64,000 bases of DNA from Pseudomonas cannabina (GTDB lineage: Bacteria; Pseudomonadota; Gammaproteobacteria; Pseudomonadales; Pseudomonadaceae). Both the position numbers and the translations under genes were made by a program. Location of the stretch: contig NZ_FNKU01000001.1 in NCBI RefSeq assembly GCF_900100365.1, positions 2,852,001-2,916,000 of the forward strand. Direction: 5' to 3'. The stretch's first letter is position 1; every line of letters starts with the position of its first letter. The notes under the pieces were generated by a model. The model did not search any database and was not told where the DNA came from. It saw only the letters and a list, made by a program, of their open reading frames with translations. This document shows, piece by piece, positions 1,467 through 15,075 of the stretch.

Positions 1467-1783
1467 GCACAGCAAGATAAATCGGCGCACGCCTGATAGC
1501 CGAGAGTTGTACCACCGCGATCTCCACTCTGAACCAGCAAGGAGTGGAAAACCTCGATGCCACGCTGGATGCTCAAAAACCAGAACATCGCTCAAGGAAA
1601 CCTGACACACGACCCTGTGCAGAGTTAACCATCACTAAGGAGACGCTGAACAATTAACCCGTTCGCACCGTCCCCATTTCCAAGCCGGTTTTTTTCAACC
1701 TGCCGGCCTTATTTTACGTTTCTCGAGCAGATTTCTGCCCTCATTTTGCTGAAAGGCGGGCCAGTCCCGCCTTTCAGACGGAT

Positions 1784-2761
1784 TTATCCTGCCGTCTGTT
1801 GTAAATACCGCTTGGCCAGCATCAGATTGGCCAACCCAAACAAACTGAACAACTGCGCTGTATTCTTTTCCAGCCCACGGTAGCGAACCTTGCGATGATT
1901 GAAGCGCACCTTGATTACCTGGAAGGGGTGCTCGACCTTGGCACGCAGTTGCGCCTTGGCATATTCAATTTTGCGCTTGACCCGATACAGCACGCTGCCT
2001 TCGCCGTGCTGCTTGTAACTGCTTGGCCGTTCTGCAATCGACCAGATAACGTCCCGTTCAGCATGCTCCGGTCGCTTGGCCGCACCGGTGTATCCAGCGT
2101 CACCCGAAACATAGGTTTCGTCACCGTGAAGCAACTGGCCAACCTGGGTGACATCCGCCACGTTAGCGGCCGTCCCTACTACGCTGTGCACCAGCCCCGA
2201 CGTGGCGTCTACACCAATGTGGGCCTTCATCCCAAAGTGCCATTGATTGCCTTTCCTGGCCTGATGCATCTCAGGATCACGCTTGCCTTCTCGGTTCTTG
2301 ACCGAGGGCGGCGCGGCGATCAGAGTAGCGTCGACGATAGTGCCTTCCTTGAGCAGCAGCCCCCGGCTGGCCAGATGCTGGTTAATCGTTTCAAACAGCA
2401 GCCGGGTTAGCTGATGGACTTCCAGCAAGCGGCGAAAACGCAGCAAGGTGGTGGCATCCGGTGCAGACTCGCGACCCAGGTCGATACCCATAAAACCGCG
2501 GATGGCCTGGCTGTCGTAGACGGCATCTTCGCAACCTTCATCGGAGAAACCGAAACACTGCTGCACGACGTACATGCGCAACATGCGCGACACCCCTATC
2601 GCAGGGCGTCCGCGCTTGCCTGCGGTGTTGCTATAAAACGGCGCCACTTGCGCCTCCAGCAGGGCCTAGGGCACCAACTGTTCAAGGTCAGCCAGGAAGC
2701 GATCTCGGCGAGTCTGCTTTTTCTTGCCGGTATATTCGAGTTCGGAGAAGGTCTTCTGCAC
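1784..2761 (-). pseudogene. IS5-family transposase, interrupted by an in-frame amber codon
   Basis: DDE transposase of the IS5 group. The catalytic triad is visible: D in TIVDATLIAAP, D in VSGDAGYTG, E in KVEHPFQVIK, with the IS5-like block GNQWHFGMKAHIGVDA. The frame opens at GTG 2761, but codon 2668-2666 is TAG between QLVP and ALLEAQ, where IS5 itself has Trp (LPW). The rest is a 287-residue ORF that could start at GTG 2647, lacking the first ~38 residues. Identical at protein level to the copies at 4626-5603 and 7168-8145. Functional only with amber readthrough or the internal start. Confidence 0.85.
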
Positions 2762-2804
2762 GCGCGTAACGCTCACGGAGAGGGAGGCTGTTGAAGGAAC
2801 TTAG

Positions 2805-2903
2805 GGAGACGCTGATTTATTCTAAAACCCAGCTGTTGCCCCCAGATAAATCAAGGCCTCCAGAGCGTTGCAGGGACGAAAAATCGAATAAATCAGCGCC
2901 TCC
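2805..2903 (-). mobile_element. MITE copy 1 (99 bp)
   Basis: 99-bp non-coding element with ~18-bp terminal inverted repeats (GGAGACGCTGATTTATTC at one end, the complement of GGAGGCGCTGATTTATTC at the other). Orientation is opposite to the other copies. Left flank TTAG (2801-2804, IS sequence), right flank CTAA (2904-2907). The outer ten bases equal the ends of the neighbouring IS5-family element. Confidence 0.85.
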
Positions 2904-2907
2904 CTAA

Positions 2908-3305
2908 GGCACAGCAATTCTTATATCGCCAGCCGTACATAGCCAAAAATAATAAACCCGCAGACTCGCACACCCTTCAAAGCGATAGCACTCATTCAAT
3001 CAATGACAATGTTCTATATGAAATATGAGCATAAGTGCTGAGTCATGAAAAGCTGTAAACATCAACTATCATATTAGTACTTTACGCCTCGTTTTATTTT
3101 TCAGAATGACAACTCATGGATGATATAGTTATTACCGTGAAACCGTCGGATCGGTTTTTACACCGCGTGCGTCTAAGGCCTGAAAGGAGACCTGTCAGAC
3201 AGACCCGTCATCTATGGGTTTCGAACTATAGAACCTGTCCCGAAGTACGTCGACAGTTATATGCACCATCCAGCCAGACGTTCACCATCAGCGGGAGACT
3301 CTGAA
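2908..3305. other. Gene-free AT-rich stretch
   Basis: About 400 bp of visibly lower GC than the flanks, between IS copy 1 and the truncated homospermidine synthase gene. Only short ORFs without ribosome-binding sites were seen. No Hrp box (GGAACC...CCAC) was recognised. It presumably contains the promoter of the downstream gene. Confidence 0.5.
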
Positions 3306-4388
3306 ATGAACAGCGACACTACATCCTCTGTGAAACTGGTGTTTATCGGTTTCGGCTCTATCACCAAAGCCACTATCGGGTTGCTTGGCACGGCCCTGAC
3401 ATTCGACATGTCGCGGATTGTAATAATCGCACCAGACATCAAGGACTCCGAGCCGTTCGTCGCGTACGGGGTGACGTTTATCGATCAAGCGCTGACGCCA
3501 GACAATCTGGAGGGCGAGCTGGGCAACGTCGTAGCGCGCGGCGACTTCATCGTTAATCTTTCAGTCAATGTCTCCAGCGCAGACCTGATCAGATTTGCCC
3601 ATGCCCACCAAGCGCTGTATCTCGATACCTGCATCGAGCCTTGGGAGGGCACGTATATCTCACCCAATCTGACGGCCTCGCAACGCTCCAACTATGCGCT
3701 TCGTGATCAGTTGCTCACGCTGGGTGCAGAACTGGGTACAGGGCCAACCGCAGTGGTGACCCATGGTGCCAATCCGGGCCTGATATCACATTTTTTGAAG
3801 TGTGCGTTATCCGAGCTGGCTGCAAAACTCTCGGTTCCTGTACCTCGGCATCAAGGCCACATAAATTGGGGCGTTTTGTCGATGGAGCTGAACGTCAAGG
3901 TCATCCACATTGCAGAGCGTGATACTCAACGCTCTGCGCGTATCAAGTCCGATGGCGAATTCGTCAACACCTGGTCAGTCGATGGATTTGTCAGCGAGGC
4001 GGGACAACCGGCCGAACTTGGCTGGGGCACCCACGAAAAAACCTGGCCGCCCTTCGCTCACCATCATCTTTTTGGCTCTGACAACGCTATCTACCTTGAT
4101 CGGCCCGGCGCTTCAGTGTCAGTCAAGACCTGGACCCCCAACGGCGGACCTTGTAACGGAATGTTGATCACTCACAACGAGGCGATATCCATCCCTGAAT
4201 TGTTGACAGTCAGGGACGACGGAGCGCTGCGATACCGCCCAACCGTGCATTACGCCTACCATCCTTGTGACGATGCACTGCTTTCAATCAACGAATATAC
4301 CGGTCGAGGGTGGCACGCGCAGGACAGTAAACGGATCATGCTGGATGAAATTACCTCAGGCGGTATTGATGCGCTAGGGAGGCGCTGA
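3306..4388 (+). pseudogene. hss: Homospermidine synthase, 3' end cut off by a MITE
   Basis: Resembles bacterial homospermidine synthase of the saccharopine dehydrogenase-like superfamily, which joins two putrescine units to make sym-homospermidine. Seen: N-terminal Rossmann motif FIGFGSITKATIGLL, the stretch LYLDTCIEPWEGTY, THGANPGLISHFLK and ISINEYTGRGWHAQDS-type residues near the end. ATG 3306 is preferred over 3261 because GGGAGA lies 8 bases upstream. The native frame ends at ...GGIDAL at about 4376; the last residues and the stop come from the MITE at 4378. The family is usually ~470 residues, so ~110 C-terminal residues are missing, and no continuation exists beyond the transposon nest at 8295. 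Probably inactive. Confidence 0.8.
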
Positions 4389-4476
4389 TTTATTCGATTT
4401 TTCGTCCCTGCAACGCTCTGGAGGCCTTGATTTATCTGGGGGCAACAGCTGGGTTTTAGAATAAATCAGCGTCTCC
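4378..4476 (+). mobile_element. MITE copy 2 (99 bp)
   Basis: Terminal inverted repeats GGAGGCGCTGATTTATTC / GAATAAATCAGCGTCTCC, flanked by CTAG at 4374-4377 and 4477-4480. It truncates the homospermidine synthase gene and abuts IS5-family copy 2. Confidence 0.9.
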
Positions 4477-4480
4477 CTAG

Positions 4481-5689
4481 GGAGACGCTGAACAATTAAC
4501 CCGTTCGCACCGTCCCCATTTCCAAGCCGGTTTTTTTCAACCTGCCGGCCTTATTTTACGTTTCTCGAGCAGATTTCTGCCCTCATTTTGCTGAAAGGCG
4601 GGCCAGTCCCGCCTTTCAGACGGATTTATCCTGCCGTCTGTTGTAAATACCGCTTGGCCAGCATCAGATTGGCCAACCCAAACAAACTGAACAACTGCGC
4701 TGTATTCTTTTCCAGCCCACGGTAGCGAACCTTGCGATGATTGAAGCGCACCTTGATTACCTGGAAGGGGTGCTCGACCTTGGCACGCAGTTGCGCCTTG
4801 GCATATTCAATTTTGCGCTTGACCCGATACAGCACGCTGCCTTCGCCGTGCTGCTTGTAACTGCTTGGCCGTTCTGCAATCGACCAGATAACGTCCCGTT
4901 CAGCATGCTCCGGTCGCTTGGCCGCACCGGTGTATCCAGCGTCACCCGAAACATAGGTTTCGTCACCGTGAAGCAACTGGCCAACCTGGGTGACATCCGC
5001 CACGTTAGCGGCCGTCCCTACTACGCTGTGCACCAGCCCCGACGTGGCGTCTACACCAATGTGGGCCTTCATCCCAAAGTGCCATTGATTGCCTTTCCTG
5101 GCCTGATGCATCTCAGGATCACGCTTGCCTTCTCGGTTCTTGACCGAGGGCGGCGCGGCGATCAGAGTAGCGTCGACGATAGTGCCTTCCTTGAGCAGCA
5201 GCCCCCGGCTGGCCAGATGCTGGTTAATCGTTTCAAACAGCAGCCGGGTTAGCTGATGGACTTCCAGCAAGCGGCGAAAACGCAGCAAGGTGGTGGCATC
5301 CGGTGCAGACTCGCGACCCAGGTCGATACCCATAAAACCGCGGATGGCCTGGCTGTCGTAGACGGCATCTTCGCAACCTTCATCGGAGAAACCGAAACAC
5401 TGCTGCACGACGTACATGCGCAACATGCGCGACACCCCTATCGCAGGGCGTCCGCGCTTGCCTGCGGTGTTGCTATAAAACGGCGCCACTTGCGCCTCCA
5501 GCAGGGCCTAGGGCACCAACTGTTCAAGGTCAGCCAGGAAGCGATCTCGGCGAGTCTGCTTTTTCTTGCCGGTATATTCGAGTTCGGAGAAGGTCTTCTG
5601 CACGCGCGTAACGCTCACGGAGAGGGAGGCTGTTGAAGGAACTTAGTGTGCCAAGGGTGGGGACAGTTGGCTATTTTTGCAGCGCCTCC
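4481..5689 (-). mobile_element. IS5-family element copy 2 (1209 bp, intact ends)
   Basis: Ends GGAGACGCTG (4481) and CAGCGCCTCC (to 5689), flanked by CTAG direct repeats at 4477-4480 and 5690-5693. The YTAR-type 4-bp target duplication and the DDE transposase place it in the IS5 subgroup. It resembles what is annotated as ISPsy19-like in P. syringae, from memory and not verified. Both ends are complete, in contrast to copy 1. Confidence 0.9.
4626..5603 (-). pseudogene. IS5-family transposase copy 2, same amber codon
   Basis: Same 326-codon frame as at 1784-2761: GTG start at 5603, TAG at 5510-5508, long downstream ORF from GTG 5489 to the stop at 4626. DDE residues are intact. The predicted protein is indistinguishable from copies 1 and 3, so it has not decayed beyond the shared amber codon. 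Confidence 0.85.
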
Positions 5690-5693
5690 CTAG

Positions 5694-6871
5694 GAGGGTG
5701 TAGACAAAATAAATTAAACTTTCACTCCCTTGTCTGAATAGCCCTCAAGCCATGCCTAAAACCGGACGTCCTCGCTCGATTGCCGCCGAGCACTATCCCG
5801 TGCTGGTGAAACTCGCTCATGCACAGCCCTATTCCAGCCAGGCCGAATTGGCGCTCGTATTCTTCGCCGAAACCGGTATCACTGCGCATCCCGACACCTT
5901 TGCAAAAGCGTTGAAAATGGCAGGGATTACGCGTGTAAAGCAGCGGGCCAAGGGAAGTTTTCAGTCACCTGAACCTAATAAAGCCTATGGCTACAATGAA
6001 ACCCACCGCCGCCAACTGCCGGAGCAGCTATATCCGAGTTGCTTGACAGATACCGAGTGGGCACTGGTCGCCGACCTGTTTGAAAGCCAGGGCGGACGAG
6101 GAGTGCCACCGCTTCACTCTCGGCGCACGTTGCTGGAAGCCTGTTGCTATGTCGTACGCACGGGGTGCTCATGGCGAATGCTACCCCGCGATTTTCCTCA
6201 TTGGGACAATGTCTACAAAACGTTCCGCCGGTGGAGCGCTCAAGGCAAGTTCGAGCAAATGCATGATCGCTTGCGAGCTCAATGGCGTGAGCGGGAAGAA
6301 CGCGCTGACAGCCCGTCAGCAGCGATCCTGGATTCACAGTCGACCCGCAGTTCTCCTCAAGGCGGTGACAGCGGCTACGACGCAGGCAAAAAAGTGAAGG
6401 GGCGTAAACGAAGTCTGATTGTCGATACATTGGGCCTGCTGCTGGCTGTCAGTATCAGTGCTGCAAGCGTGCAGGATCGTGACGCGGCGGATGATGCGGT
6501 GGCGTACTCGAAGGAAAAATATCCGTCACTGAGCACGCTTTTTGTTGATAGTGCGTACGCAGGAAAATGGGCACAGCGCACCCATCAACTGCACGCTATC
6601 GATGTTCAAGTGATCCGTGGCCCGAATAACAGAAGAACAGGGCAATGGCACTCTGAACAAGGCGATCTATTTTCCGTGGAGCCTGTTCAGACTGGATTTG
6701 TGGTCATGCCCAAGCGATGGGTAGTGGAGCGAACTCATGCCTGGAATGAGAGAGCTCGGCGACTGATCATGCATCATGATCGCCTTTTTGCGGTAAGCGA
6801 GGCATGGGTTTGGTTGGCCGAGGCTCGAATACTCGCGCGCCGACTCACTACATGATTTTGTCTACACCCTC
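5694..6871 (+). mobile_element. IS5-family, IS427-type element (1178 bp)
   Basis: Perfect 17-bp terminal inverted repeats, GAGGGTGTAGACAAAAT at 5694 and its complement ending at 6871, flanked by TAG at 5691-5693 and 6872-6874. A 2-3-bp TA-containing duplication fits the IS427 subgroup. It is inserted in the CTAG junction next to IS copy 2. Confidence 0.88.
5752..6855 (+). CDS. IS427-type (IS5-family) transposase with N-terminal helix-turn-helix
   Basis: 367-residue transposase. Residues ~1-75 form a homeodomain-like helix-turn-helix (KTGRPRSIAAEHY...), followed by a DUF4096-type block (YPSCLTDTEWALVADLF) and the DDE catalytic domain: D in AAILDSQSTRSS, D in TLFVDSAYAGKW, E in RWVVERTHAWNERARRL. 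Many IS427 transposases need a programmed frameshift; here the frame is single and uninterrupted. The gene fills its element and appears intact. Confidence 0.9.
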   Translation: MPKTGRPRSIAAEHYPVLVKLAHAQPYSSQAELALVFFAETGITAHPDTFAKALKMAGITRVKQRAKGSFQSPEPNKAYGYNETHRRQLPEQLYPSCLTDTEWALVADLFESQGGRGVPPLHSRRTLLEACCYVVRTGCSWRMLPRDFPHWDNVYKTFRRWSAQGKFEQMHDRLRAQWREREERADSPSAAILDSQSTRSSPQGGDSGYDAGKKVKGRKRSLIVDTLGLLLAVSISAASVQDRDAADDAVAYSKEKYPSLSTLFVDSAYAGKWAQRTHQLHAIDVQVIRGPNNRRTGQWHSEQGDLFSVEPVQTGFVVMPKRWVVERTHAWNERARRLIMHHDRLFAVSEAWVWLAEARILARRLTT

Positions 6872-6874
6872 TAG

Positions 6875-6974
6875 GGAGCCGCTGATTTATTCGATTTTTC
6901 GTCCCTGCAACGCTCTGGAGGCCTTGATTTATCAGGGGGGCAACAGCTGTGCTTTAGAATAAATCAGCGTCTCC
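6875..6974 (+). mobile_element. MITE copy 3 (100 bp)
   Basis: Starts GGAGCCGCTG (one base off the consensus GGAGGCGCTG), ends CAGCGTCTCC. One extra G in the internal G-run makes it 100 bp. Flanks CTAG 6871-6874 (shared with the IS427-type element end) and 6975-6978. Confidence 0.88.
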
Positions 6975-6978
6975 CTAG

Positions 6979-7077
6979 GGAGGCGCTGATTTATTCGATT
7001 TTTCGTCCCTGCAACGCTCTGGAGGCCTTGATTTATCTGGGGGCAACAGCTGGGTTTTAGAATAAATCAGCGTCTCC
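6979..7077 (+). mobile_element. MITE copy 4 (99 bp)
   Basis: Same consensus as copy 2, with CTAG on both sides (6975-6978 and 7078-7081). It lies in direct tandem with copy 3 and against IS copy 3. Confidence 0.9.
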
Positions 7078-7081
7078 CTAG

Positions 7082-8290
7082 GGAGGCGCTGCAAAAATAG
7101 CCAACTGTCCCCACCCTTGGCACACTAAGTTCCTTCAACAGCCTCCCTCTCCGTGAGCGTTACGCGCGTGCAGAAGACCTTCTCCGAACTCGAATATACC
7201 GGCAAGAAAAAGCAGACTCGCCGAGATCGCTTCCTGGCTGACCTTGAACAGTTGGTGCCCTAGGCCCTGCTGGAGGCGCAAGTGGCGCCGTTTTATAGCA
7301 ACACCGCAGGCAAGCGCGGACGCCCTGCGATAGGGGTGTCGCGCATGTTGCGCATGTACGTCGTGCAGCAGTGTTTCGGTTTCTCCGATGAAGGTTGCGA
7401 AGATGCCGTCTACGACAGCCAGGCCATCCGCGGTTTTATGGGTATCGACCTGGGTCGCGAGTCTGCACCGGATGCCACCACCTTGCTGCGTTTTCGCCGC
7501 TTGCTGGAAGTCCATCAGCTAACCCGGCTGCTGTTTGAAACGATTAACCAGCATCTGGCCAGCCGGGGGCTGCTGCTCAAGGAAGGCACTATCGTCGACG
7601 CTACTCTGATCGCCGCGCCGCCCTCGGTCAAGAACCGAGAAGGCAAGCGTGATCCTGAGATGCATCAGGCCAGGAAAGGCAATCAATGGCACTTTGGGAT
7701 GAAGGCCCACATTGGTGTAGACGCCACGTCGGGGCTGGTGCACAGCGTAGTAGGGACGGCCGCTAACGTGGCGGATGTCACCCAGGTTGGCCAGTTGCTT
7801 CACGGTGACGAAACCTATGTTTCGGGTGACGCTGGATACACCGGTGCGGCCAAGCGACCGGAGCATGCTGAACGGGACGTTATCTGGTCGATTGCAGAAC
7901 GGCCAAGCAGTTACAAGCAGCACGGCGAAGGCAGCGTGCTGTATCGGGTCAAGCGCAAAATTGAATATGCCAAGGCGCAACTGCGTGCCAAGGTCGAGCA
8001 CCCCTTCCAGGTAATCAAGGTGCGCTTCAATCATCGCAAGGTTCGCTACCGTGGGCTGGAAAAGAATACAGCGCAGTTGTTCAGTTTGTTTGGGTTGGCC
8101 AATCTGATGCTGGCCAAGCGGTATTTACAACAGACGGCAGGATAAATCCGTCTGAAAGGCGGGACTGGCCCGCCTTTCAGCAAAATGAGGGCAGAAATCT
8201 GCTCGAGAAACGTAAAATAAGGCCGGCAGGTTGAAAAAAACCGGCTTGGAAATGGGGACGGTGCGAACGGGTTAATTGTTCAGCGTCTCC
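7082..8290 (+). mobile_element. IS5-family element copy 3 (1209 bp, intact ends)
   Basis: Inverted relative to copies 1 and 2. Ends GGAGGCGCTGC (7082) and GCAGAGGAGA-type complement CAGCGTCTCC (to 8290), with CTAG at 7078-7081 and 8291-8294. Same length as copy 2. Confidence 0.9.
7168..8145 (+). pseudogene. IS5-family transposase copy 3, same amber codon
   Basis: GTG start at 7168 (VQKTFSELEYTGKKKQTRR...), TAG at 7261-7263 in place of the family's Trp codon, then an open frame from GTG 7282 to 8145. DDE residues are as in the other copies. That two element copies with complete ends share the stop suggests it was present in the transposing ancestor. Confidence 0.85.
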
Positions 8291-8302
8291 CTAGGAACTA
8301 GC

Positions 8303-8917
8303 TCACTCTTTATGGCTGGTGACTTTCACACCGTTGCGTTTTAGGGTCTCAATCGTCCCCTGAACAAAAACCTCCATCTGATCCATATACTTTTTGTCCG
8401 TCTGCGGCCCGAGCAGCTCCCGCTTCGGGGGATTCCGGTTAAGCGGTACATACGCGCATTTCGGCTTGTCTTTTAGCTTCTTGGCCAATCCGAAGGTCTG
8501 CACTGGCGGTGAGGGTATATGGAAAGTTGGAGAGCCTGGAGGCAATTGATCAAGCCTATGGTGGGCTTGATAGAAAGCAGCTAAATAAGTCCAACCTAGA
8601 GCGGTAAACGAAAGGATCCCGTAATCACTGCCACTCTGCGTAGTTATCCACACGCTATCGCCACGAGCATGAATCTGCACAATTTCGGATGTCTCAATCC
8701 GGTGACCGTCGCCAAACGTCCCGAATCCGTCGGCGCAGACATGGGCCCAAACCTCACCCGTCAAAATCGCGAGAGGCTCAGGCTGAATATGCGCGTTCGT
8801 GACAAAGCCCGTGAATACGACGCCCTCAGCGTCTGCTTTCAGCTTTAATATTGCTGCGCTGATTTTTTCATTCATCTCATAGCACTCATCGCATAAGGAT
8901 AAAACGATCCAAGACAC
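8303..8917 (-). CDS. Hypothetical protein, unrecognised
   Basis: 204-residue ORF with no family I recognise. It starts at GTG 8917, preceded by AAGGG five bases upstream; an alternative start is ATG 8875 (MNEKISAAIL). No signal peptide or membrane segment is seen. The C-terminal half is rich in Lys/Pro, suggesting a cytoplasmic protein. It is transcribed away from the XRE regulator at 9073 and ends 8 bp from the CTAG at the right edge of the transposon nest, so its true 3' end could have been altered by insertion. Accessory gene; function unknown. Confidence 0.55.
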   Translation of the reverse strand: MSWIVLSLCDECYEMNEKISAAILKLKADAEGVVFTGFVTNAHIQPEPLAILTGEVWAHVCADGFGTFGDGHRIETSEIVQIHARGDSVWITTQSGSDYGILSFTALGWTYLAAFYQAHHRLDQLPPGSPTFHIPSPPVQTFGLAKKLKDKPKCAYVPLNRNPPKRELLGPQTDKKYMDQMEVFVQGTIETLKRNGVKVTSHKE

Positions 8918-9072
8918 TTTCGCCCTTACAACTTAGGGGAATATGCGCGTAACTGGCTCGTCACCATGAAAACAAAAAGACATTAAGATATATCTTAACT
9001 TCGCTGATCGTTGATTCCAAAATACCGCAAGCGTCGATCCAATGCTAGCTCTGTGATTCTAGGATAAGAGCG

Positions 9073-9375
9073 ATGGATTTCAACGAGGCCGTCGGCCTTG
9101 CAGTGCAGGCGTTACGTCTCAGCAAAGGGCTCACACAAAAAGATTTTCTTGGCGTGCTGTCGATACAGTATTTGTCTGATATTGAGCGGGGAAAGCGCAC
9201 CCCTTCGATTGCGGTACTGGCTCAGATTTGTGAACGATTGGAGGTGCATGAAGCAGTGCCTGTGATCATGGCTAAGCATTTCATGCGCCCATTGGAAACT
9301 CTCACTCATACATTGCAGGAGATAGAGAGACAGCTATATGTGGCGGGATTCATCGATCCAGGCTCCTATGCCTGA
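9073..9375 (+). CDS. XRE-family helix-turn-helix transcriptional regulator
   Basis: 100-residue protein with a Cro/C1-type HTH at residues ~5-60 (VQALRLSKGLTQKDFLG, then IQYLSDIERGKRTPSIAVL), the usual XRE layout with the conserved ERGKRTPS turn. No C-terminal effector domain beyond ~40 residues is seen. It is divergent from the unknown gene at 8303-8917 across 155 bp, so it may control that gene and itself. Confidence 0.8.
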   Translation: MDFNEAVGLAVQALRLSKGLTQKDFLGVLSIQYLSDIERGKRTPSIAVLAQICERLEVHEAVPVIMAKHFMRPLETLTHTLQEIERQLYVAGFIDPGSYA

Positions 9376-10095
9376 GTACCTTGGGAGCGCGGTTTCGTTT
9401 CTGCCTTTATAAAGCACGACTGTCTAGGGCCTATGACGAGACAGAAATAAGCCATATTGGACGCGTTAATGGACAGACTATCTACTTACCGTATGGAGGC
9501 TAGCGCGATCCAGATTCGGCTTGATACAGCAGCGCTCGCTTAGTAGTCGTGCGCACGATCCCATCGTCAGTATCCAGCCTGCACGCTTCTCCGCCCCATA
9601 TACATTGGTGAATTTACTCTTTCCGTAACTCGATTTTTTTACGTAACACTACGCATGTTACGTAAAATTTTCGCGTTACGACGGGACAAGGCAATCGTAT
9701 TTGTAAACCATAATCGTCCCCATTATTCGTAAGCGTCCGGCCAACACACCTTCCTGCCCCCAACGCTTAGGGAGGCGCTGATTTATTCGATTTTTCGTCC
9801 CTGCAACGCTCTGGAGGCCTTGATTTATCAGGGGGCAACAGCTGGGTTTTAGAATAAATCAGCGTCTCCTTAGGGCGATTCCCGCGCAAGCTATATCCTT
9901 CGCACGTTTACTGCTGAACTGAGTTGCGCGAGGTAAAATTGTAAGCGTCTTGCTAAAACACCTTCGATGCTGTTGTGTAAGCCGTAGATTTTCACGGCTT
10001 AGGGCTGACCTTTCCGAACCCCTGCGTAAAAAACAGTTTCCGGCCAGCCCTGCTTTCAAATGCTACATTCACATTTTTCCTGGCAGGCCGTCTTC
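9376..10095. other. Gene-free accessory region with IS66-type ends
   Basis: 720 bp without a convincing gene. It contains two sequences like IS66-family terminal repeats, GTAAGCGTCCGGCC at 9729 and GTAAGCGTCTTGC at 9941, both pointing right, and a MITE at 9771-9869. The AT-rich stretch at 9610-9690 has a repeated TTACGTAA-like motif (inverted TTACGTAA around 9640-9665). No transposase frame is associated with these ends. Confidence 0.5.
9771..9869 (+). mobile_element. MITE copy 5 (99 bp), solitary
   Basis: Terminal repeats as in copies 2 and 4. The target duplication is TTAG (9767-9770 and 9870-9873), a second YTAR variant. This copy is away from the nest and shows the element moves on its own. 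Confidence 0.92.
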
Positions 10096-10587
10096 ATGCA
10101 CATCAATCCTGATCATTTTCTACAGACGGAGAATGGCCGCATTATTAATGCTGAGCTAAATAGACTGGCTTGGCAGAGGGCTCACCTTGCCCTATCAGAG
10201 GCTCTGCTAGCGACTCCAAAGCCTTCTCGTCTGTATTTGTTGATAGGCGCTCAGGGTGCAGGAAAAAGCACTTGGGCCAAATCGACGCTCTTAGTTGAGC
10301 CTGGCGCTGTAATCTTTGATGCCATCCTGGTTCAGCGCTGTGAGCGTGAATCGCTCATAAAGGCAGCCAAGAAGCATGGGGTAGATGTGGTAGCTACTTG
10401 GTTCACTACTTCGCTGGAAGACTGTTTGGCACGTAATCAATTGCGCCCTGATGATGAGATGGTTCCTGAGAATGCCATTAGAAACGTTTTTAAAGCACTT
10501 CAGCCTCCACGCTTGAGCGAGGGGTTCACCGAAATTTTAGTCGTTGATGCACAGGCTAGCGAGAACGCTCAGTCTTCTAAAGACTGA
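10096..10587 (+). CDS. P-loop kinase (polynucleotide kinase/zeta-like AAA ATPase)
   Basis: 163 residues from ATG 10096; an upstream in-frame ATG at 10060 is less likely. The Walker A motif is LIGAQGAGKSTWAK, followed by a short linker to AVIFDAILVQRCERESLIKAAKKHGVDVVATWF and TSLEDCLARNQLR, the pattern of T4 polynucleotide kinase-type and related small-molecule kinases (Asp of the DA motif, Arg-rich lid, PE.I....LQPP). The substrate is unknown. No antitoxin-like partner is adjacent. The last codons overlap the antisense end of an IS66 TnpC remnant, so the native C-terminus may have been replaced. Confidence 0.65.
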   Translation: MHINPDHFLQTENGRIINAELNRLAWQRAHLALSEALLATPKPSRLYLLIGAQGAGKSTWAKSTLLVEPGAVIFDAILVQRCERESLIKAAKKHGVDVVATWFTTSLEDCLARNQLRPDDEMVPENAIRNVFKALQPPRLSEGFTEILVVDAQASENAQSSKD

Positions 10588-10689
10588 ATCGACTTCCAGT
10601 TATGCGGCAACAGCTCGGCGATCTCGCTCGCCCGTTGCGTCTGCAAGGTGCACGGTACGAGGTGCATCTGTGCGAGGCCTGCTTCTTCG
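10569..10689 (-). pseudogene. IS66-family transposase (TnpC) C-terminal remnant
   Basis: On the minus strand the frame ends ...RASEIAELLPHNWKSIQ then SLED and TGA at 10571-10569. The LLPHNW box is the hallmark of the IS66 C-terminal domain. Only about 40 codons remain before the IS66-type end at 10690 interrupts the frame. No other part of this transposase is in the window. Confidence 0.6.
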
Positions 10690-11133
10690 GTAAGCGTCCA
10701 GCCAATGCACCTTGCCTAGTCTAGATATGCCCAGCTATCGGCACCATCGAAATGGCGTACGGGTGTTGTTCCGACCAATTCCTGATCGAAATTATTAATA
10801 TCCACCCCAACACCAGCACCTGCCCCCGGGAGGATCGCTTCCCAGTGAGTGGCGCACCCACAATTACTACAACGGATCGTCCTCAGGGTTTCCTGACCCC
10901 AAACATACGATAAGGTATTTTGAGGGTGTCCCTCGAACTTTACTGCGCTCAGCCATAGCCTTAACGCTAAACCTCGTCCAAAAATGGATTCGGGTGCAGG
11001 CGCAGAGAAGCACCGTGCTGCAACCTGCATTTATTCCATTACCCATTCCGTTGACCGGTGTAAGTTAGCTCGCAACGTCGTCGGCTGGCTGGGCATATCT
11101 AGGCTAGGCAAGGTGCACTGGCTGGACGCTTAC
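10690..11133. repeat. 444-bp segment bounded by ~45-bp inverted repeats with IS66-type tips
   Basis: The left arm begins GTAAGCGTCCAGCCAATGCA at 10690 and the right arm is its complement ending at 11133. The arms match over about 45 bp with about two differences. The GTAAGCGTC tip is an IS66-type terminus. No 8-bp target duplication is found (CTTCTTCG versus GTTTACCG). Both arms include the codons for the WAYL tail of the GFA-family fragment inside, so they look like two inverted copies of one element end. Confidence 0.65.
10716..11030 (-). pseudogene. GFA/CENP-V family protein fragment
   Basis: The C-terminal ~75 residues match the glutathione-dependent formaldehyde-activating (GFA) fold: NTLSYVWGQETL, the zinc-ligand pair in RCSNCGCATHW, and the usual ending RHFDGADSWAYLD. 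The N-terminal half with its CxC and CxxC zinc motifs is absent; the first ~25 residues of this ORF are unrelated filler. It lies entirely within the 10690-11133 inverted-repeat segment. Enzymatic activity is unlikely. Confidence 0.6.
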
Positions 11134-11344
11134 GTTTACCGTAGCGCATGCATATCAAGACAAAAACATCTGTATGAGGCCGTAAGGCGTACGGAAAACT
11201 ACTGAGATGTGAGTCAGCTAGATATTTTTTTGGAAACGGACGTTTCGCGATGGCGATCTAGCCTGGCAGGGGCGGCAGAGAAGGTTCCGTAGCGCAAAAA
11301 ATCACAGGCCTACACCTAAAGTCTATCACTCGCCGGAAGGGTAT

Positions 11345-11416
11345 TGCTCTCTGCTGGAGTCGAACCAGCATCTAACCCTTAGGAGGGGCTTGTTCTATCC
11401 ATTGAACTAAGAGAGC
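11345..11416 (-). tRNA. tRNA-Arg (CCT), no encoded CCA
   Basis: Cloverleaf on the minus strand: acceptor GCTCTCT/AGAGAGC, D-stem GTTC/GAAC, anticodon loop CTCCTAA (CCT), T-stem GCTGG/CCAGC with TTCGACT loop, discriminator A. The genome follows with ATA, not CCA, unlike its neighbour at 11561. It reads the rare AGG codon. It is closer in sequence to the 11561 gene than to the usual Pseudomonas tRNA-Arg(CCT). Confidence 0.88.
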
Positions 11417-11560
11417 ACATGGGAGGATATTTTCCGGTTTTCAGGCACAGCTATCAAGCATTTTTCAAATTTATCATCGGCTTACACTCCCCATCAGACA
11501 CAGCCTCCAACCTAGAGCTTTCACTGTAGCGGTCGTCCTCTGCTGATGGCGAGGCAAAAA

Positions 11561-11635
11561 TGGTGTCCCTTGCTGGATTCGAACCAGCATCTAACCCTTA
11601 GAAGGGGTCTGTTCTATCCCTTGAACTAAAAGGAC
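11561..11635 (-). tRNA. tRNA-Arg (TCT)
   Basis: Acceptor GTCCTTT/AAGGGAC, D-stem GTTC/GAAC, anticodon loop CTTCTAA (TCT), T-arm GCTGG-TTCGAAT-CCAGC, discriminator A and encoded CCA. Reads rare AGA codons. Its body differs from the typical pseudomonad tRNA-Arg(TCT), consistent with a horizontally acquired gene. Confidence 0.88.
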
Positions 11636-11719
11636 ATAGCATCACTAGGGCTGCGCTTATCAGTGGTTAGGTCCACCGCAAAGCAAAGGCAGTGTAGGGT
11701 TGCGCACCCAATACGTACC

Positions 11720-11784
11720 ACAGATAAGAACCTGCAACCTTCCCCTTAGGAGGGGGATGCTCTATCCAATTGAGCTACTGAGAC
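11720..11784 (-). pseudogene. tRNA-Arg (CCT) gene broken in the T-arm
   Basis: From 11784 leftward, acceptor 5' strand GTCTCAG, D-arm GCTC...GAGC, anticodon arm TCCCC-CTCCTAA-GGGGA and T-stem 5' strand GCAGG-TTC follow the pseudomonad tRNA-Arg(CCT) pattern. After TTC the sequence diverges (TTATCTGTGG): the T-stem 3' strand, acceptor 3' strand and CCA are missing. The break lies where tRNA-targeting integrases typically recombine. Confidence 0.7.
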
Positions 11785-12099
11785 ACTGCGTGCCGACACA
11801 CCGATCGGTGCCAGCGAGGACGGCGTGCATCTTAGCGAGATGCGCCGCTCTTGTCATGTTGTCATTGCCCTCCAGAGCTGTAGCCGATTTCGCTGAAAGA
11901 CACCGACCGGTGAACCATCATGCATTTTGCAATGCGCCAAAAAGCCATCATTGCAAAACGCACTGCCAGCACGTTTTTTATGATATTTAACTCATTGATT
12001 TATAAGGTATTTATTACAATCTATCGTTGGCATGCAGACTGCATTACCAGTAGCAGTGAACACATCTCATCCCAAACGGTCGGGCACAGGTACTGGAAA
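11785..12099. other. Intergenic region, no gene recognised
   Basis: 315 bp between the broken tRNA and the small secreted-protein gene. It shows a direct repeat of a CACCGA(T/C)CGGTG palindrome (11798-11811 and 11901-11914), which could be an operator pair. It has an AT-rich part at 11970-12020. Nothing else was identified. Confidence 0.4.
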
Positions 12100-13386: not shown

Positions 13387-13509
13387 TTGCGTCCGTTTTC
13401 TACGCTGTTATGAGCCAGTGATAACCGAGACAAAAATGAAGATTAATTCATCAATAAAAAACCGCCGGTCAACAGACTGTGTGAAAACACACTGATGAAG
13501 GCCCAAGCA

Positions 13510-13541
13510 AACGCCCCGACTTGTTCGGGGCGTTTTTTTTG
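13510..13541 (+). terminator. Inward-facing terminator inside the IS1182 end
   Basis: AACGCCCCGA-CTTGT-TCGGGGCGTT with a run of eight T on the plus strand, 22 bp inside the left IR. It would stop transcription entering the element from the amrZ side, antisense to the transposase gene, which ends at 13571. Confidence 0.8.
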
Positions 13542-13570
13542 TATTGGCAGCAGACGAAAAAAATGTCCGC

Positions 13571-14995
13571 TCAGCCCATCAAAGCCATCAGATGGCGCAC
13601 ACCGAGCACTTTAATCGCTCGTTTCAGGTTATAGGCATTCACCGCCAAGGCCATTTCAGCTTTTGTACCCTCCAGTTGTCGCAGCAAGAAACGGCCATTA
13701 CCAAATAGCCATTGCTTGAGGTTGCCGAAGGGGTGCTCAACGATGGATCTTCGGTTGGCCATCATCTCAGGATGCGCCTGCATTCTTTGCTCCATCCGCT
13801 CGAAAGCCTCTTCATGGGCATGTCGTGAGACATAACGGCGCCGGGCTCGAGTGCATTGCGTTTTCAGCGCGCAGTTGGCGCAGTCATCGACCTCAGCCTG
13901 ATAGATCCGATCACCTTTGTTGTGCTGTTTTAGCGTTAACCATTTGCCTGCCGGACACTGGAAACGATCGTGTCCGGTCTCATAGATAAAGTCTTTTCGC
14001 TCAAAGAGCTGCTCTTCCTGACTGCCAGGGTTTTTCGAACGATTGGGCGGTACATAGGCCGTAATCGAAGCATCCTCGCAGGCCTGAAACTGCTTGCCAT
14101 TGGAGTAGCCGGCATCGGCAGTGACCGTCAGATCATCTTGCTGTAACTCTGCTTTGGCGGCCTTGGCCATCGGCTCCAGTTGCTTTCGGTCATCGCCATC
14201 TTGGGTGACCTCATGATGCAAAATCAGGCAATGCTCGGCGTCCACGACGGTTTGCACGTTGTAGGCCACACGTGGCCCTTTGGCCGTGCGCATCATTCGG
14301 GCATCGCTTTCATGGGTGTTGAACTGCTCGATGCCCATCGAACGCATCAGTGCCTGGCAACTCTGATTATCCTGTTGTCGAGCCTCAAGCTGTGCCAGGG
14401 CTACCTTGATTGCGCTGCGATCAATTGAATCTGTGGTTTCAGCCTTGTCGGCCTCATCCAGCTCGGCCAGATACTGAGCGATGCGCTTATCCAGTTTTTC
14501 TTCCTGGCGCTTGAGCTGCTTCAAATTCACATGACGCCGTGAGGATGCGACCGCCTGAAACTTGCTGCCGTCGATGGCCACCAACTCACCGGCGATCAAG
14601 CCTGCCGTGCGACAAAACCGAACGAAAGCACGGCAGGTCGCGATGAAGGCGGGTTTATTGTTCTTGCGAAAATCGGCGATGGTCTTGAAGTCGGGCTTGA
14701 GCCGGTTGATCAGCCACATCACTTCGATGTTGCGCTGACACTCGGCTTCAAGACGTCGCGATGAGCGAATCCGCTGAAAATAGCCGTAGAGGTAGAGTTT
14801 TAGCTGATCGGCGGGATCATAAGCAGGGCGCCCCGTGCTTTTTGGAATCGCTTTATCGAAGCCCAGTTGCACCAGATCGAGCCTGGCAACGTACAGGTCA
14901 ATGACACGAACGAGGTGATCCTCGGGGATCAACTCTTCCAGCGAGACCGGGAATAGGCTGGTCTGGCTGCGGGACTCACCTTGGATGTAGGCCAT
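13571..14995 (-). CDS. IS1182-family transposase
   Basis: 474 residues from ATG 14995 (MAYIQGESRSQTSLFP); the longer in-frame start at 15031 is less likely. The N-terminal DUF772-type domain has LIPEDHLVRVIDLYV and GRPAYDPADQLKLYLYGYF. The DDE domain has D in LVAIDGSKFQA, D in TVTADAGYSNGKQF and E in RSIVEHPFGNLKQW, with a CxxC-type insertion DDCANCALKTQCTRARRRYVSRH typical of the family. The frame is intact. Single copy in this window. Confidence 0.93.
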   Translation of the reverse strand: MAYIQGESRSQTSLFPVSLEELIPEDHLVRVIDLYVARLDLVQLGFDKAIPKSTGRPAYDPADQLKLYLYGYFQRIRSSRRLEAECQRNIEVMWLINRLKPDFKTIADFRKNNKPAFIATCRAFVRFCRTAGLIAGELVAIDGSKFQAVASSRRHVNLKQLKRQEEKLDKRIAQYLAELDEADKAETTDSIDRSAIKVALAQLEARQQDNQSCQALMRSMGIEQFNTHESDARMMRTAKGPRVAYNVQTVVDAEHCLILHHEVTQDGDDRKQLEPMAKAAKAELQQDDLTVTADAGYSNGKQFQACEDASITAYVPPNRSKNPGSQEEQLFERKDFIYETGHDRFQCPAGKWLTLKQHNKGDRIYQAEVDDCANCALKTQCTRARRRYVSRHAHEEAFERMEQRMQAHPEMMANRRSIVEHPFGNLKQWLFGNGRFLLRQLEGTKAEMALAVNAYNLKRAIKVLGVRHLMALMG

Positions 14996-15075
14996 AACGA
15001 AAAATGCTCTGTATCTTTCGATACGGAGCATTTTCTTTGAGCGCTGCGCAGATTGCTAGGTTTTCACACAGTCTG

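Follow-up and report, generated by a model that had tools for sequence, protein, structure and literature searches.

How six small mobile elements come to stand edge to edge at a single chromosomal place is the question raised by a 64,000-nucleotide stretch of the Pseudomonas cannabina genome (the window, meaning the whole stretch of DNA analysed, to which all positions given without a contig refer). The array, at positions 4374-8294, is made up of insertion sequences (ISs) and miniature inverted-repeat transposable elements (MITEs) separated only by the word CTAG or TAG. An explanation that we consider quite probable is that a target word, YTAR, is duplicated and reused by successive insertions, that element tips mimic the favoured surroundings of this word, and that in this array a deletion and local copying came on top. 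The host is a plant-associated Pseudomonas with a genome of 6.39 Mb in nine contigs, of which about 1.25 Mb, window included, was sampled; the stretches were picked partly for junctions and for ISPsy19, in which the sample is thus enriched, and sample counts were, unless noted otherwise, made after removal of the repeated end of contig C3. The initial annotation had placed six edge-to-edge elements at 4378-8290 with CTAG or TAG at all junctions, and its coordinates agree with the sequence and with a script annotation. The array reads as follows:

4374-4377, no strand: outer CTAG target copy on the left, lying within a saccharopine-dehydrogenase-like gene; equal to the single CTAG at the same point in the uninterrupted gene of P. 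syringae pv. cilantro 0788_9
4378-4476, plus strand: MITE, 99 bp, tips GGAG...CTCC, identical to the MITE at 6979-7077; 94 of the 132 sampled MITEs have this sequence, more than any other
4481-5689, minus strand: IS5-type element, 1209 bp, preceded by CTAG; longest transposase open reading frame (ORF) of 287 amino acids (4626-5489)
5690-5693, no strand: CTAG spacer between the IS5-type copy and ISPsy19
5694-6871, plus strand: ISPsy19, 1178 bp, with a 367-amino-acid transposase (5752-6855); its 3-bp target TAG is taken from the CTAG spacer
6872-6874, no strand: TAG spacer between ISPsy19 and the MITE variant
6875-6974, plus strand: MITE variant, 100 bp, followed by CTAG; sole copy with that sequence in the sample
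6979-7077, plus strand: MITE, 99 bp, followed by CTAG; identical to the MITE at 4378-4476
7082-8290, plus strand: second 1209-bp IS5-type element, identical to the reverse complement of 4481-5689; ORF at 7282-8145
8291-8294, no strand: outer CTAG on the right, beyond which the sequence does not continue the left flank

Except at ISPsy19, bordered by CTAG to the left and TAG to the right, all junction spacers are CTAG, as found both by script annotation and by direct reading, and CTAG is rarer than chance in the window (48 observed versus 104 expected from shuffles). Membership of the IS5-type copies in the IS5 family is shown by the ORF at 7282-8145, which scores 318.7 bits with NCBIfam NF033581 (cut-off 140) and matches Pfam DDE_Tnp_1. 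We take them to be putatively IS52-like on the basis of the 1209-bp length and TTAG target of IS52. YTAR is present on both sides in 59 of 60 IS52-like copies, with equal words in 47 (the 60 include one copy from the repeated C3 end), and in 132 of 139 MITE copies (seven of the 139 in that same end). The 99-bp MITE is too short to encode a transposase and has its outer ten bases, GGAGRCGCTG, in common with the IS52-like element; from these shared tips and the shared target, it would be mobilised by the IS52-like transposase. An assignment of the window MITEs to MITEPsy1 was rejected, as their ends are GGAG[G/A/C]CGCTGATTTATTC and not the MITEPsy1 ends GGAAGGTCTGAAAAAGCC / GTATCCTCTGAAAAAGCC; genuine MITEPsy1 copies are present elsewhere in the host genome. 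The element at 5694-6871, initially called IS427-type, stands as an element under the corrected name ISPsy19, with 1178 nt, perfect 17-nt ends, a 367-amino-acid transposase and a 3-nt target; ISPsy19 of P. syringae pv. phaseolicola 1448A is described as having 1178 nt, GAGGGTGTAGACAAAAT ends and a 3-nt target (PMC3189936), and plasmid copies of the same element are annotated as ISPsy19.

Touching elements are a recurrent feature of this genome. The sample contains 132 annotated MITEs, 59 IS52-like copies, 49 copies of ISPsy19 and 38 of MITEPsy1, and clusters with at least two touching elements of these four kinds number 67 of 159. The array is one of these 67 and hence not unique, and its six elements, the maximum cluster size, are equalled by two other clusters. 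Another element is touched by 39 of the 49 sampled ISPsy19 copies and, genome-wide, by 50 of 88 IS52 left-end copies, MITEPsy1 neighbours not being counted. The whole genome contains 698 YTAR-plus-tip ends of the IS52/MITE kind (at most one mismatch), 91 IS52 left ends and 117 ISPsy19 ends. The junction word CTCCYTARGGAG has 49 matches in the genome versus two for the reversed word; after exclusion of four (two in the repeated C3 end and two on C7 that represent a single MITE edge, counted twice, next to other DNA), 45 are counted, 44 of which were resolved as pairs of known elements. Among 398 sampled genomes of the genus, an 18-base tandem word was found in the host genome alone. Insertions at a YTAR inside these elements number two in the sample, a count that is a hint only, as it was obtained with the window IS52 (a rare variant with an extra interior CTAG) in a junction-biased sample. 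At C1:4168313-4168515, a tandem of MITEPsy1 and MITE has the tail of another MITE as its right flank, i.e., it is an insertion at an inner TTAG.

In the proposed explanation, four small elements (the IS52-like IS, the 99-bp MITE that shares its tips, MITEPsy1 and ISPsy19) would target all or part of the palindromic word YTAR. Those other than ISPsy19 would duplicate all four bases, each insertion making two YTAR copies from one, and the outward-read tips CTCC of the IS52-like element and its MITE would resemble the favoured neighbours of YTAR, which would make the inner side a somewhat better target. Repeated hits on the renewed site would then build edge-to-edge stacks with identical spacers and no specific self-recognition, and ISPsy19, using three of the four bases, would drop into the same spacers.

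If each insertion enters the previous target duplication, a site must show one and the same word in every spacer and at both outer edges. Among 32 clear segments, which consist of MITE, IS52 and MITEPsy1 only and do not lie beside ISPsy19, all spacers equal both outer words in 20, two agree outside and differ inside, and ten differ outside; three words picked at random according to their observed frequencies would all be equal in 9% of cases. Beside ISPsy19, where the outer word may borrow an ISPsy19 base, nine of 14 segments agree and five do not. Empty sites were found in plasmids. Five copies of TTAG separated by four elements at C3:9371-10889 correspond to one TTAG with no element in P. 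ficuserectae pZJDX2 and in DC3000 pDC3000B, and four copies of TTAG separated by three elements at C2:87293-88708 correspond to a single TTAG in pv. morsprunorum p2_tig3; for the C6 plasmid query, no plasmid record covered most of it. From spacer identity and these empty sites, insertion into the previous target duplication appears well supported as a general mechanism. The initial proposal that each insertion reused the preceding CTAG duplication can thus be retained genome-wide, but not for this array as a whole. Judging from its position inside a pre-existing junction, ISPsy19 arrived after the junction that it split, the rest of the insertion order not being readable. In P. tremae plasmid p1 (positions 4715-4760), the TTAG that holds a 99-bp MITE in the host plasmid precedes different, IS5-like tip letters (GGAAGCTCTGAAG).

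The array itself has a more complex history, as is evident from its surroundings:

3261-4373, plus strand: saccharopine-dehydrogenase-like gene interrupted by the array, with no 3' part found in the host genome
8295-11727, no strand: island-like DNA up to a tRNA-Arg gene; the pv. cilantro relative has no equivalent at this position
1639-2903, minus strand (IS52): truncated IS52-like copy whose broken edge adjoins a MITE (2805-2903) with unequal target words (TTAG, CTAA)

In P. syringae pv. cilantro 0788_9, whose protein is 97% identical, the gene runs uninterrupted through the single CTAG and no element is present, so that the search for empty sites in related P. syringae genomes succeeded for the left flank. 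The right flank, however, is not the continuation of this gene. Synteny resumes at window position 11728, about 16.6 kb further on in pv. cilantro, at a tRNA-Arg gene. The first 2.4 kb of pv. cilantro DNA beyond the site have no match in the host genome, the following 7.6 kb have only 69-70% matches there, and the last 6.6 kb before synteny were compared with the window alone; the approximately 16.6 kb of the relative's DNA between the two flanks is thus missing from the host where tested. The 3.4 kb between the array and the tRNA gene looks like island DNA. Matches to the right flank were found in eight of 57 genomes (the host included, the others over short stretches only) and in four of 398 genomes of the genus (one being the host and one a 1-kb match at 69%), and the best 15 of 37 plasmid matches cover only the MITE. 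Since the right flank is unrelated and DNA of the relative is missing, two sites must have been joined by at least one deletion or recombination. This event lies between the two outer CTAG copies, and the match between them does not establish a single site. The claim that a single site, with both flanks from one empty site, was hit repeatedly is therefore not borne out here. The island-like DNA at 8295-11786 ends at tRNA-Arg (cct) and is accompanied by two further tRNA-Arg genes. Further on, an insert of about 1.6 kb (13473-15075) with a 486-amino-acid transposase-like ORF is absent from the relative, whose matching ends overlap by six bases.

A second indication of local events comes from the IS52-like copies. 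The two full copies in the window are identical, and the truncated copy at 1639-2903 agrees with them over 1166 bases. All three carry the variant with the shorter, 287-amino-acid ORF, which is present at five places in the genome, three in the window and two on C7; the latter are probably one locus, since C7 repeats its own end. A 330-amino-acid ORF with the same start position is found in 52 of 60 sampled full-length IS52 copies, and the 287-amino-acid form only in the two window copies (one of the 60 is the C3 repeat). Sharing of such a rare allele makes independent arrivals from the genome pool unlikely, and local transposition or gene conversion seems the better reading. Together with the foreign right flank and the missing DNA, it also contradicts the initial idea that the array was built without homologous recombination. 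The unequal words TTAG and CTAA around the MITE at 2805-2903 are a sign of another deletion beside an element.

These same observations are what a more radical alternative draws on, namely that the array was assembled mainly by homologous recombination (deletion, inversion, gene conversion) between elements at separate sites, the uniform CTAG being partly a coincidence because CTAG is the commonest target word. This alternative is a serious one, to which we give somewhat less than an even chance. The foreign flank, the DNA missing where tested, the rare allele at five places and the unequal outer words in ten clear segments are all in line with it. However, in the two plasmid stacks both flanks are preserved, the empty site is single and all spacers are alike, the majority of clear segments are uniform, and with CTAG in 68 of 181 matched target pairs, six CTAG in a row by chance are unlikely. 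In the explanation based on reuse of YTAR, this array would have undergone at least one further step, a deletion or recombination joining a gene-side stack to DNA of other origin, by a route that we infer, and a local copying or conversion of its IS52 copies; for this array, target-duplication reuse is one ingredient beside deletion and local copying.

Why stacks form at all was approached with a model of the target, trained on 45 isolated insertions whose two target words match and whose flanks are unique, after removal of 14 with repeated flanks. Read towards YTAR, the preferred neighbourhood is A/T, T, A/C, C (p = 0.003, 0.03, 0.01 and 3e-6, respectively), C occupying position -1 in 39 of 90 half-sites (an enrichment with p = 3e-6). 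With a weight of 2.4, CTCC at the element tip conforms to this preference, and about 7% of background half-sites are equal or better. YTAR type alone predicts 12.7 IS52/MITE junctions for 349 elements or 12 for 340, whereas YTAR type plus neighbourhood predicts 43 for 349 elements (bootstrap 24-80) or 41 for 340, and 45 were found. Since this small-sample context model, which contains no end recognition, already expects a number of junctions close to that observed, special self-recognition does not seem to be needed to account for insertion beside ends.

This result bears on a further alternative, in which the transposase actively recognises element ends as targets beyond ordinary preference, as IS30 does. 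The nearly four-fold excess of junctions over the YTAR-only expectation (45 versus 12-13) and the fact that ISPsy19 mostly adjoins other elements would fit this alternative, which we nevertheless regard as unlikely: the context model gives 41-43 junctions (24-80) without it, the spacers are full target duplications, and four kinds of element participate, two of them with different tips. IS30 is likewise both passenger and preferred target, which gives edge-to-edge copies, but it uses a separate end-targeting reaction with 2-bp joints (PMC9333248), in contrast to the full 3-4 bp target duplications seen here.

Several observations nevertheless weigh against reuse of the target duplication and tip mimicry. 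The sample is junction-enriched, and in 39 spaced 20-kb stretches taken alone the touching elements are seven of 26 MITEs, five of ten IS52 and six of six ISPsy19 (MITEPsy1 not included). The ten clear segments with unequal outer words and the two with a differing inner word would mean that recombination or composite units are common. A partly filled site is not clean either: next to the C2 stack, a site is occupied by just a MITE in the host genome and in p2_tig3, and pv. aesculi pCOR2250 adds to this MITE an IS52 on the far side of TTAG, yet beyond this IS52 the target word (CTAG) and the flank differ. Within the target model, the outermost C of the tip, at -4, is disfavoured (weight 0.67), and the context preference is modest and rests on 45 sites. 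Assuming that selection rules out half or three quarters of the background sites, the expected junctions rise to 71 or 113, more than found, and the fit of the model is thus not unique. A first target model, with 68 sites and 55 expected junctions, was dropped because its training sites included MITEPsy1 neighbours.

Stacks could also spread as preformed composite units, mobilised through the tips at their two outer ends. The clearest candidate is C4:5499-6914, where the outer word is TTAA on both sides and the inner spacer between MITE and IS52 is CTAG, and where three plasmids (those of B13-200, P. coronafaciens X-1 and 1448A) have a single TTAA; this MITE-IS52 pair probably arrived together as a composite unit, and C1:3103978 resembles it. 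As a general account of stacking this is improbable, equal outer with different inner words being limited to two of the 32 clear segments. An assembly artefact, by which repeats were collapsed or wrongly joined, would be favoured by the identical 1.2-kb repeats in the array and by contig ends that are not clean (C3 and C7 repeat their own ends, with 99.9% identity over 6243 bp and 99.8% over 5648 bp, respectively), but is highly improbable given that the window is interior to one 5.8-Mb contig, that the array contains a MITE variant unique in the sample, and that named plasmids also contain such elements in contact with each other, IS52-ISPsy19 being matched in one piece in pPla107-1. In the stretches compared, the repeated ends of C3 and C7 make these contigs look like circular plasmids whose assembly ran on past the point of closure.

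Parts of this picture were already known, i.e., the occurrence of ISPsy19 beside ISPsy2 or MITEPsy1, with one tandem insertion, and the insertion of IS30 beside its own ends. In 1448A, which has the same ISPsy19, MITEPsy1 duplicates CTAG or YTAA, one tandem ISPsy19 and MITEPsy1 insertion was reported, and 12 complete or degenerate ISPsy19 insertions lie beside ISPsy2 or MITEPsy1; IS52 is absent there, the 99-bp MITE of the host genome has other ends, and the accessible text of that report does not explain the adjacency by reuse of a target duplication (PMC3189936). The same conserved four-base YTAR duplication is described for IS5, in a source whose accessible parts do not discuss stacking (PMC10359306). 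Deletions associated with ISs and lost target duplications are known from laboratory evolution, where they concern IS movements and not stacks (PMC11708052). Plant PIF/Harbinger elements and their MITEs, with an IS5-like transposase and 3-bp TTA/TAA duplications, also show nested insertions, but these elements are eukaryotic and the nested insertions lie inside elements, unlike the edge-to-edge arrangement described here (PMC2213677). An explanation of stacking by target-duplication reuse was not found in the literature searched, as far as its accessible text goes, which does not show that none exists.

The new contribution is to connect target duplication, tip sequence and the number of junctions quantitatively. 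This connection offers a simple numerical account of element clumping, in which the target word is copied at each insertion and the tips mimic the favoured neighbourhood. Tentatively, and at close to even chances, a wider view may be put forward in which elements with different tips share a YTAR niche, favoured tip bases on some of them make occupied sites self-renewing landing pads, stacking is a predictable, quantitative outcome of target chemistry, and stacks are deletion-prone edges at which adjacent DNA is lost. Matching target words at the edges of a stack are no proof that its flanks belong together, and stacking may steer insertions from fresh genes to sites that have already been hit.

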